Shown: positions 26,557 to 64,000 of the stretch, in pieces
Position numbering within the stretch: the stretch's first letter is position 1
How the letters are laid out: each line of letters starts with the position of its first letter
NCBI GenBank assembly: GCA_017551625.1
Contig: JAFZLF010000057.1
Coordinates: 1-64,000, forward strand
Reading direction: 5' to 3'
DNA: 64,000 bases
DNA from: Clostridiales bacterium
GTDB taxonomy: Bacteria; Bacillota; Clostridia; Saccharofermentanales; Saccharofermentanaceae
The notes under the pieces: generated by a model
What the model saw: only the letters and a program-made list of their open reading frames with translations
The model's database searches: none
What the model was told of the DNA's origin: nothing
Translations under genes and position numbers: made by a program

Positions 26557-28233
26557 TCAGGCGATGTGGATATGGAACACCAGGTCCTCGAGCACGCCAC
26601 CGTTGTCATAGGCATAAAGGAGAATGAAATCTCCCTGGTCGTTTCTCTGAAGGAAGCTGTAGTGAACAAATGTCATGTCGTCGATTCCGATGAGCTCGGA
26701 GAGCGCGGCCGACGCGATGGTGTGGCCGGAGCGGTCCATCAGACGGAGCGTATCTTCGCCCTGATCCATGACCAGGAGATATTCTCCAAACTCACAGAGG
26801 GCATAGGTGTACATGATCTCGAGAGTATCATCCTTCCACTCCTTGATAAACTTGCCTTCGAGATCGTACTCGAGAAGTGCGCATCCGGACCCGTCCTGTC
26901 CGAATGTGGAGAAACGGATGAAAATACTGCCGGAGGTCACATATGCGTACTGCAGATCCCATCCCTCAAGCGGGACCTGATCAAGCTCCACCGGCTCTGC
27001 GGTCACGCTCTTTCCATCCGGATCCAGATGCAGAAGATGCAGCTGATTGCCAAGAGGATTGTGAACGAAGATCACACTTCCGTCCGGAGAAACCGCCACG
27101 TCATTGAGACAGGACATCACACGATCACCGGATTCCGTCGTCTCGACGAGGAAGAAATGATCCTGATAACCATCATACGGATCCGGATAGAATGTAACCG
27201 TATCGCCGTCAAGCAGTTCCACTGTCTCGATCTCGGCTCCGAAGGCCACCTCCGTGACCTTCGTCATTTCTTCGTCTGTGATCAGGTAGATATACACGAC
27301 GGATGTGCGGATATCAAACGTGTACAGATACTTTTCCGAAGCTGCGGCGTGCGTCGCCGTGGAGGAGAATCTCACGATGCCGCCCTCTGAAGTAACAAAT
27401 ACATGCTCGCCGAAATGTGCCTGGCTCGGAGTCACGGTGTACTCACCCAGAGGCATCGTCGTAACAGTGGTCTGGTGCTCGCCGTTTTCAAACGAGAAAC
27501 CGGGATCGCTCAGGCCCAGATCCGGTAGTTTGAACTCGATGTTTCTGAGGATCTCGTCGCCTTTGTACGGGGTATTCAAAGTGTATCCGTTCACCGTGAT
27601 CTCTACGGTCATACCGGAGGCCTCATGACGATAGACATAACGTGTCTCATCGAGGTCGATCTCCTTTCCGAAATGCATGTTCTCGAAGCTGATAAATCCG
27701 TATCCGCCGATGTCAGTCGTGGGGAGTTTCCCTTCTGCAAAATCACTTAATGAGAAGTAGTACTGGTATTCCTTCTGGAAATCCTCGAGATCTTCTGTCC
27801 GGATCTCCAGGAAAATGTAGTTATAGTCCGGGTGATCCGGGTCACCCCAGAATGCGAAGAAGGACTCTTTATCCGTGTCGATGCATTCGTCCTTGATGCA
27901 TTTATAAAAATCGGGGATATCACTCGCCCAAAGCGCCGCATCGATGTGGTATGTATCCTGGGAGGCCGCGCTGCTTCCGTTTCCGGAATTCGTACCCGAG
28001 CCCGGAGCGGCTTGTTGATTCGTGTTCTGACTTGAATTCTTGTTGGAAGACTTGTTCACCTCTCCGCTGGTGGTCGCCGCTGACTTGTTTGACTTCTTCG
28101 TGCCTGTTTTCTTCCCGCCTGTCTTTGAGCATCCGCTGAGCAGCATCCCTGCCGCAAGCGCTATTGCTCCCGCCTTTATCGCGATCTTGTTAACTCTTGA
28201 TCTAAACATCTGGTTCACTATTGTCCTTTTCAT
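26557..28233 (-). CDS. Lipoprotein of unknown function with propeller-like C-terminus
   Basis: 558 residues: a long basic leader and signal peptide with lipobox LSGC (Cys ~35), a Lys/Ser/Asn-rich linker (~36-95), a globular part with ALWASDIPDFYKC, then ~300 residues of short beta segments (DVAVSPDGSVIFVHN, LEYDLEGKFIKEW, LRLMDRSGHTIAS) that read like propeller blades. No enzyme motif. The downstream spacer (26453-26556) carries an AAAAGCACT motif in reverse. Divergent from the superoxide reductase gene across the hairpin array. Confidence 0.6.
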   Translation of the reverse strand: MKRTIVNQMFRSRVNKIAIKAGAIALAAGMLLSGCSKTGGKKTGTKKSNKSAATTSGEVNKSSNKNSSQNTNQQAAPGSGTNSGNGSSAASQDTYHIDAALWASDIPDFYKCIKDECIDTDKESFFAFWGDPDHPDYNYIFLEIRTEDLEDFQKEYQYYFSLSDFAEGKLPTTDIGGYGFISFENMHFGKEIDLDETRYVYRHEASGMTVEITVNGYTLNTPYKGDEILRNIEFKLPDLGLSDPGFSFENGEHQTTVTTMPLGEYTVTPSQAHFGEHVFVTSEGGIVRFSSTATHAAASEKYLYTFDIRTSVVYIYLITDEEMTKVTEVAFGAEIETVELLDGDTVTFYPDPYDGYQDHFFLVETTESGDRVMSCLNDVAVSPDGSVIFVHNPLGNQLHLLHLDPDGKSVTAEPVELDQVPLEGWDLQYAYVTSGSIFIRFSTFGQDGSGCALLEYDLEGKFIKEWKDDTLEIMYTYALCEFGEYLLVMDQGEDTLRLMDRSGHTIASAALSELIGIDDMTFVHYSFLQRNDQGDFILLYAYDNGGVLEDLVFHIHIA

Positions 28234-28366
28234 ATCTTTTTCATTTCATTACTCGAGCGCTCTTTGCGCATCTTCCGGTGGCGCTCTGCATAATAGACGA
28301 AGTAGAATTTCTCTCTGTTGCAATTTCAGAAAAGAGAGAAGCTCAACTATACAAAACATATCCTCT

Positions 28367-28566
28367 CAGTCAGATATTTGTCAGATTTGGTCTTCGTATC
28401 TGACACTTTTCTGACTGAGTCAGTTATTTGTCAGATTTGGCCTTCGTATCTGACACTTTTCTGACTGAGTCAGATATTTGTCAGATTTGGTCTTCGTATC
28501 TGACACTTTTCTGACTGAGTCAGATATTTGTCAGATTTGGTCTTCGTATCTGACACTTTTCTGACT
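28367..28566. repeat. Four tandem 50-bp hairpin repeats
   Basis: Exact 50-base period, units starting at 28367, 28417, 28467 and 28517. Each unit folds as AGTCAG ... TGTCAGAT-(11-base loop)-ATCTGACA ... CTGACT. The changes within the array (unit 1 first base C for G; unit 2 ATA to TTA and GGTC to GGCC) fall outside the paired arms. The array occupies the divergent region between 28233 and 28635, ending 68 bases before the superoxide reductase start. Confidence 0.9.
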
Positions 28567-28634
28567 GGAACCCGCAACATGTGCTAAAATGCACTCATAA
28601 CCATCTGATTCTATCTGGCAAAGGAGTGTGTACT

Positions 28635-29009
28635 ATGGAGATTGTTATTTATCGTTGTAAACATTGCGGAAATATCGCGATCAAGCTCGTGGATTCAGGC
28701 GTCCCCATGATGTGCTGCGGAGAAAAGATGGAAGCGCTCGTTCCCTCTTCCGTTGACGCATCGCTGGAAAAGCACGTACCCGTCATCTCGCGCGACGGAG
28801 ATCTGGTCACTGTCTCCATCGGTTCCACCGCGCACCCGATGGTTGAGGAGCACTACATCCAGTTCGTGATCCTCGATACGACCGCCGGCATCCAGATCGC
28901 GGAACTTCACCCCGGAGACGATCCAAAGGCCGTGTTTACGGTCATTCCGAGCGTCGAAGTGAAGAACGCCTACGAATACTGTAACCTGCACGGCCTCTGG
29001 GTCAGCTGA
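28635..29009 (+). CDS. Desulfoferrodoxin-type superoxide reductase
   Basis: Reduces superoxide to peroxide in anaerobes without releasing oxygen. 124 residues, usual length. N-terminal desulforedoxin domain with four cysteines (CKHC ... MCCGE) for a rubredoxin-like iron; C-terminal catalytic iron site ligands in EKHVPV, TAHPM, EEHYIQ and CNLHGLW. The ATG at 28635 follows AAGGAG; an upstream in-frame ATG (28581) would add an unlikely leader. A TAAAAT at about 28585 is the probable -10, so the tandem hairpin array lies immediately upstream of the promoter. Confidence 0.95.
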   Translation: MEIVIYRCKHCGNIAIKLVDSGVPMMCCGEKMEALVPSSVDASLEKHVPVISRDGDLVTVSIGSTAHPMVEEHYIQFVILDTTAGIQIAELHPGDDPKAVFTVIPSVEVKNAYEYCNLHGLWVS

Positions 29010-63827: not shown

Positions 63828-63906
63828 TTACCATAACTTGGTAATTTATGCAAAACTTACCATAACTCACCATAACTTTGCAATTATGCGTGAACTTACC
63901 ATAACT
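63828..63906 (-). promoter_or_regulatory. Four operator-like repeats upstream of the ATPase gene
   Basis: TTACCATAACT at 63828, 63857 and 63896 and TCACCATAACT at 63867, all in the same orientation with start-to-start spacings 29, 10 and 29. Placed between the ATPase start and the stop of the next gene. Confidence 0.65.
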
Positions 63907-64000
63907 CTACTTCGCCGGCACCTGTCCCATCAGATCAAGAAGTGCGGCGACATTCGCAACAATATTCTTCTTGTCCTTTGGCGCAGGCTTATACTGCAGG
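63907..64000 (-). CDS. C-terminal end of a protein (gene extends beyond window)
   Basis: Reading frame ends KDKKNIVANVAALLDLMGQ then VPAK and stop at 63907-63909. Only ~31 codons are visible. Coding is supported by codon pattern and direction; the family cannot be told. Confidence 0.5.
   Translation of the reverse strand, partial: LQYKPAPKDKKNIVANVAALLDLMGQVPAK

Follow-up and report, generated by a model that had tools for sequence, protein, structure and literature searches.

Why should four near-identical 50-bp palindromic units lie in tandem between two divergent genes, one of them coding for a superoxide reductase (SOR), and what, if anything, reads them? The array was found in a 64,000-nucleotide stretch of a Clostridiales genome (hereafter the window), and an earlier note, made from the letters alone, implied a control element selected either for its fold or as a symmetric protein site. 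Our leading reading, to which we give an even chance, is that the array belongs to a REP/BIME-like dispersed intergenic family, the half-sites of which would most likely be read by a dedicated, putative protein.

The array and its dispersed frame

Tandem Repeats Finder places the array at 28368-28567 (period 50, 4.0 copies, 97% matches), and self-comparison of the array at a lag of 50 gives 146 identities in 150 positions, against 29 in 151 and 29 in 149 at lags of 49 and 51. The four tandem units with nested inverted arms, AGTCAG/CTGACT and TGTCAGAT/ATCTGACA in every unit, are therefore real, the coordinates given earlier (28367-28566) being off by one base. Units 1, 3 and 4 are identical, and unit 2 differs from them at two positions (Table 1). 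It had been claimed that the differences between units fall outside the paired arms; this holds for 28441, in the central gap, and for 28424, the seventh base of the outer arm, only when no more than six bases are assigned to the arm. Likewise, the array does sit in the divergent region but does not fill it, occupying 200 of the approximately 400 bp from 28233 to 28635. An Rfam search returned seven weak matches, all to miRNA families and far below the gathering score. Elsewhere in the window, a two-copy 39-bp tandem repeat with ACTTACCATAACT motifs is found at 63830-63907.

Table 1. Positions in the window of the array units, their half-sites and the neighbouring features
Feature	Position	Strand	Basis or remark
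Array unit 1 (50 bp)	28368-28417		Tandem Repeats Finder; frame match 28369-28415
Half-sites of unit 1, GTCAGA	28369, 28380		
Mirror half-sites of unit 1, TCTGAC	28399, 28410		
Array unit 2	28418-28467		Differs from unit 1 only by A to T at 28424 (half-site) and T to C at 28441 (central gap)
Array unit 3	28468-28517		Identical to unit 1
Array unit 4	28518-28567		Identical to unit 1
Superoxide reductase (desulfoferrodoxin) gene, adjoining the array	28635-29009	+	PF01880 (3.3e-18), PF06397 (3.4e-6)
Lipoprotein-like ORF (558 aa), divergent neighbour	26557-28233	-	No Pfam match
CTGACT, last arm of unit 4, possible -35 hexamer	28561-28566	+	Consensus scan only
TAAAAT preceded by TG, likely -10 of the SOR promoter	28585-28590	+	Consensus scan, alignment

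A blastn search with two units as the query located the repeat on five further contigs of the genome to which the window belongs (G000); the loops are alike inside one array and unlike between places. A covariance model built on nine units detected further copies in this genome. The unit is formed by four half-sites of the form GTCNNN: a direct pair, a central gap of 12-14 bp and the same pair inverted, the head-to-tail half-sites being 11 bp apart (12 bp in some species), or about one helical turn. The corresponding exact 47-bp frame, GTC-N8-GTC-N19-GAC-N8-GAC, has 68 matches in the whole of G000 and none for the reversed control; in these whole-genome counts, as in the order and genus scans and the letter-variation figures below, GTC was fixed by the search. 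One of the 68, at C19:53909, has unlike arms and is probably a chance match. A regular-expression scan for the frame in 463 kb from three species gave 52 matches, whereas two control patterns gave 9 and 2. A de novo scan for four similar hexamers, their letters left unnamed, gave 58 raw matches in 323 kb of G000, 20 in 60 kb of G018 and 60 in 80 kb of G019, all in stretches that had been picked for holding arrays, and none in block-shuffled DNA. Nearly all of these matches carried GTC or were the same arrays read across a junction, with a few weak exceptions: three of the listed G000 matches were without GTC and several of those in G019 were off-register arrays read from the junction, and we treated matches without GTC as chance or as off-register readings of the same arrays. 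The G000 stretches examined hold 27 arrays with 64 units, one to six per array, in intergenic DNA; most of the units are written GTCTCC, unlike the GTCAGA of the window. One G000 unit (L274, at C17:57878) is written GTCTAT and shows the 12-bp spacing typical of other species.

The family is spread over the genus. Among 59 genomes searched with the covariance model, it was found in four genus genomes besides G000 and in none of the 36 genomes outside the genus. When 188 genomes of the order were scanned for the 11-bp frame, allowing 18-20 bases between the inner triplets, there were 71 matches in G000, 13 in G018 and 7 in G015; each of the other 185 had 0-2, with no excess over the control. The 12-bp frame, searched in 23 genus genomes, gave 75 matches in G014 (control 7), 62 in G019 (3), 18 in G017 (0), 15 in G011 (1) and 8 in G020 (0), against a background in which two genomes had control counts of 10-11 yet 0-1 matches. 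The letters following GTC differ with the species and include GTCAGA, GTCTCC, GTCTGA, GTCTGC and GTCGCA. Plasmid and phage records held no match to the window stretch with the array and viral contigs, searched with two patterns, held none either; a phage or plasmid origin of the repeat was rejected on these results. The literature searches made returned no publication on this repeat family.

Constant spacing and changed letters at shared loci

Classification of dispersed palindromic repeats commonly goes by sequence. In the present family the spacing and a three-base core are constant, and the remainder of the site varies among closely related species and even among the arrays of a single locus. 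The units collected from nine species comprise 203 exact ones and, adjoining such units, eight with one triplet base changed, or about 0.3% per triplet base, an estimate that was taken from units beside exact ones and leans low. The exact units had been filtered for at least two of six agreeing partner bases, which leans towards the frame, and exact matches with fewer were excluded from the unit, flank, placement and chimera analyses. In the GTCTCC family (40 distinct units) the deviation from consensus is 0.04 for the bases after GTC, 0.30 for the spacers and 0.19 for the central gap; in the GTCAGA/GTCTGA (GTCWGA) family, with 11 distinct units, the same figures are 0.13, 0.33 and 0.39. The layout is constant by species, with the 8/19 arrangement in 61 of 65 G000 units and 9/19 in all 47 units of G014, and the junction between units measures 3 bp in 37 of 37 cases in G000, 13 bp in 30 of 30 in G019 and in 37 of 39 in G014, and 3, 13 or 14 bp in G018; junctions of 3 and 14 bp are one turn of DNA apart. 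Moreover, the outer and inner half-sites carry the same letters, for which a hairpin has no need. Three G018 arrays (L179:12368-12590, L180:1375-1596 and L162/L278) are built alike, their outer units lying at a distance of about 175 bp and enclosing degenerate ones, and two unit subfamilies adjoin within one array in G019 (L175:19195-19620, L176:19369-19673) and in G014 (L256).

Comparison of flanks by blastn and tblastx allowed nine G000 arrays to be set against syntenic DNA of the sister species G018. Four arrays are absent there (C62:46829, C62:58053, C59:43388 and C56:9229), two are the same and three have as counterparts arrays of other letters. The two shared ones are the GTCGCA units at C62:50399 and C39:28111, the latter also present in G015. 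At C56:14230, one pair of convergent genes encloses GTCTCC in G000 and GTCTGA in G018 (next to the G000 array, inspection by eye shows a relic GTCAGA-type half unit); at C59:56243, with both flanks syntenic, GTCTCC corresponds to GTCAGA; and at C56:23295, where the right flank adjoins and the left is not syntenic nearby, GTCTCY corresponds to GTCTGA. In addition, at the 3'-end of a gene that resembles, by its sequence, a methyltransferase gene, G019 and G014 each have a GTCTGA array of five units and G017 and G011 each have a GTCTGC array of two, the comparison resting on one shared flank; no array lies within 500 bp of the G018 copy of this gene.

With respect to genes, one of 62 arrays from seven species lies inside a called gene. 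The median distance from array to gene is 67 bp on 3' sides and 137 bp on 5' sides, and 19 of 53 3' sides but one of 47 5' sides fall within 30 bp of an array (p 0.0002); between co-directional genes, 21 of 29 arrays are nearer the stop codon. Genes were called for these counts by a simple script, and arrays at orthologous loci were not thinned. The SOR copy is one of nine arrays, among 50, that lie between divergent genes. An upstream bias such as operators have was considered and dropped: a first look was background-like and a wider one showed the bias towards 3'-ends.

A mechanism that would bring these observations together is as follows. Tandem duplication would produce arrays whose junction is of constant length (3 bp in G000, mostly 13 bp in the others); a dedicated DNA-binding protein would recognize the half-sites in double-stranded form, GTC providing the contact that stays fixed and the three bases after it the part that changed between species; and an array would offer this putative protein a high-affinity landing place. 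We further propose, tentatively, that the protein is a fast-changing one which reads a genus-wide GTCNNN lattice, and that its preferred letters shifted and the arrays followed. If so, sister species would keep arrays at the same gene written in different letters, and a bacterial DNA-reader and its dispersed sites would be changing together, with the geometry as the fixed part; arrays read by such a protein would supply a natural series, in uncultured rumen bacteria, for following the co-change of a DNA-binding specificity and dozens of genomic sites. Several observations speak against a protein reader: the two halves of a unit are largely complementary, so that a hairpin is able to form, partner arms agree above the shuffle in three species (below), and the placement near stop codons is unlike that of operators.

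A rather doubtful alternative dispenses with the reader: the arrays would be neutral minisatellites, palindromic units moved by small transposons and kept alike through tandem duplication and replicative copying from one arm to another. It is in keeping with units that are near-identical within an array while arrays differ, with the avoidance of gene starts and with the absence from G018 of four of the nine comparable arrays. It also draws on the 8 of 27 G000 arrays that lie in a small transposon-like element with at least one imperfect terminal repeat like GGCTCTGTCACCTTTGAGTGTTGAT, at a set distance; these flanks enclose GTCTCC or GTCTGA units. Such ends, which we take to be ISL3-like, are absent from the G018, G019 and G015 stretches and from the window copy, and two array sites that are empty in G018 show, by eye, no clear target-site duplication. 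An ISL3 transposase as the mover of the G000 elements was rejected, since PF01610 was not found in G000 and occurs in one (G019) of six genomes searched. Neutrality, however, does not require GTC, the 11/12-bp spacing and the junction length to persist while other letters change from species to species, and the GTCGCA units of G000 (C62) and G018 (C41) differ at two sites, neither of them in a half-site, within an intergene that is less conserved. A longer dispersed element of G019, with one GTCTGA unit, is found at several contig ends (both ends of L150, which is C26 of G019; L156, L158 and L169), a placement that resembles that of mobile repeats.

Hairpin or half-site

It is unlikely, in our estimate, that the element works as a hairpin, whether as folded RNA (a 3'-end stabilizer or terminator) or as single-stranded DNA recognized by a REP-type transposase. 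The predicted fold is strong (z about -5.5 to -6.5 overall), at -19.3 to -20.5 kcal/mol for single units of the array (z -5.5 to -6.1) and -18.5 kcal/mol on the opposite strand (z -6.5), and proximity to gene 3'-ends is likewise described for REPs (PMC3733652). Against this, the nine G000 units show no covariation in support of a fold, since 155 of 500 shuffles reach the observed value, and one inner pair is broken in five of the nine.

The arms were then compared with their partners and with arms reassigned by shuffling within each species; if a fold were kept, partners should exceed the shuffle. They do not in G019 (partner/shuffle, outer 0.99/0.99, inner 0.63/0.71), G017 (0.61/0.61 and 0.52/0.61) or G011 (0.50/0.57 and 0.72/0.80), and the result for G014 is mixed, with the outer pair no better than shuffled (0.79/0.81) and the inner pair above it (0.85/0.75). 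Partner arms exceed the shuffle in G000, G018 and G020, but so do direct neighbours (0.82 vs 0.48 in G000); for G000 and G018 such an excess is as expected where several letter sets coexist, direct pairs rising equally.

When halves taken from different arrays are joined, the chimeras fold less well than the units themselves in two of eight species, G018 and G020; their fold is equal or better in G019, G014, G017 and G011 and about equal in G000 and G015. Energies alone are compared here, the z-scores having been set aside because the shuffle behind them preserved too much order. The better fold of the G019 chimeras (-25.3 vs -18.3 kcal/mol) arises because the left and right inner half-sites of this species are consistently unlike (GTCAGA vs GTCTAA), a mismatch that argues for a directional site and against a perfect hairpin.

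As to a transposase, Y1_Tnp (PF01797, RAYT) occurs in 4 of 23 genus genomes, twice in the array-rich G014, and was not found in G000, G018 or G019, which are incomplete metagenome-assembled genomes. The array at L191:8021-8067 comes after a stop codon and is itself followed by another strong hairpin, which has a T run, so that the array is not the obvious terminator of the gene.

The fold was rejected as the conserved property: a structure model did find the family, but covariation, shuffles and half-swaps in species with a single letter set were all negative. Between the two possibilities first raised, a fold and a symmetric protein site, the repeated half-site is the better supported. The reading of half-sites by a protein is preferred to the fold because GTC is near-invariant and arm pairing is no better than shuffled.

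The superoxide reductase promoter and known systems

There remains the locus itself. SOR orthologues were collected by protein search, and the array is absent from all five of the closest (L009-L013), the nearest of which, L009, shares 98% protein identity and 94.5% DNA identity over 458 bp; none of 80 SOR loci (327 kb, some without the full upstream DNA) holds a unit. In an alignment of five SOR upstream sequences, the window and four relatives, only the window has the array, and TG-TAAAAT and TCTGTTGCA are kept in all five. A different inverted repeat, GAAAAAGAAGGTTTC...GAAACCTTCTTTTTC, occupies L009:1822-1905, where the window has the array. A consensus scan puts the possible -35 hexamer 18 bp upstream of TAAAAT. 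Array neighbours elsewhere include a pyruvate kinase, an acetyltransferase, a beta-lactamase-fold protein and an aminotransferase, and no shared function was seen among 30 proteins examined, a part of all the neighbours in G000. That the array is an operator of the SOR gene bound by an oxidative-stress regulator is, although it lies in the SOR/lipoprotein divergent region, its last arm could serve as a -35 hexamer and a GTCGCA unit lies 3' of a gene read from its sequence as rubrerythrin in three species, highly improbable given the empty orthologous loci and the unrelated genes beside other arrays. Conservation of the array upstream of SOR orthologues was not found at the same five orthologues and 80 loci, and the idea of a control element of this gene was rejected; absence from related strains, which the earlier note had named beforehand as telling against it, is what was found at the SOR locus, and the repeat recurs elsewhere in the genome. 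On our leading reading, the SOR-adjacent copy would have arrived in this lineage and would lie at the SOR promoter incidentally, though it may supply that promoter with a -35 hexamer.

Several known systems share features with the family. Operators of the OmpR/PhoB type are formed by 11-bp direct repeats, that is, head-to-tail half-sites one turn apart as here; in the present family, by contrast, the pairs are mirrored and stand in arrays, beside genes that show no common function. The DNA uptake sequences of Neisseriaceae come in dialects with a fixed core and species-specific outer letters, as our half-sites do; uptake sequences, however, are single sites and far more numerous, whereas the present family has about 70 units per genome, in arrays. 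BrickBuilt, a MITE of Porphyromonas gingivalis with an inner minisatellite, a leader and tail and small inverted ends, resembles the eight putatively MITE-borne arrays in the placing of its tandem repeat, but its unit is 23 bp, the stem 'palindrom' does not occur in the text of the paper, and most arrays here are without such ends (PMC4596501).

REPs are described in PMC3733652 as short intergenic palindromic units near gene 3'-ends, clustered and lineage-specific. The present units share with REP/BIME elements, as portrayed there, the short intergenic palindrome, the tens of copies per genome, the arrays, the restriction to a lineage and the position near 3'-ends, and they differ in having four half-sites at fixed spacing instead of one stem-loop. 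They are not REPs of the GTAG/RAYT kind: their borders are typically CA|GTC...GAC|TG, with no constant, unpaired GTAG tag, and Y1_Tnp is absent from G000, G018 and G019, though G014 has two. CGTC-REPs, in which an unpaired CGTC flanks one end of a stem (8-9 bp) closed by a loop of 4-5 bases, are alike in their GTC-bearing motif and in that no dedicated transposase is reported (PMC3733652); they differ in that here GTC opens all four arms and there are two nested arms and a 12-14 bp gap. A broad definition of BIME-like elements, as intergenic clusters of inverted units at many places, does describe the family, and its likeness to REP/BIME repeats, which extends to neither GTAG- nor CGTC-REPs, lies in dispersal and placement.
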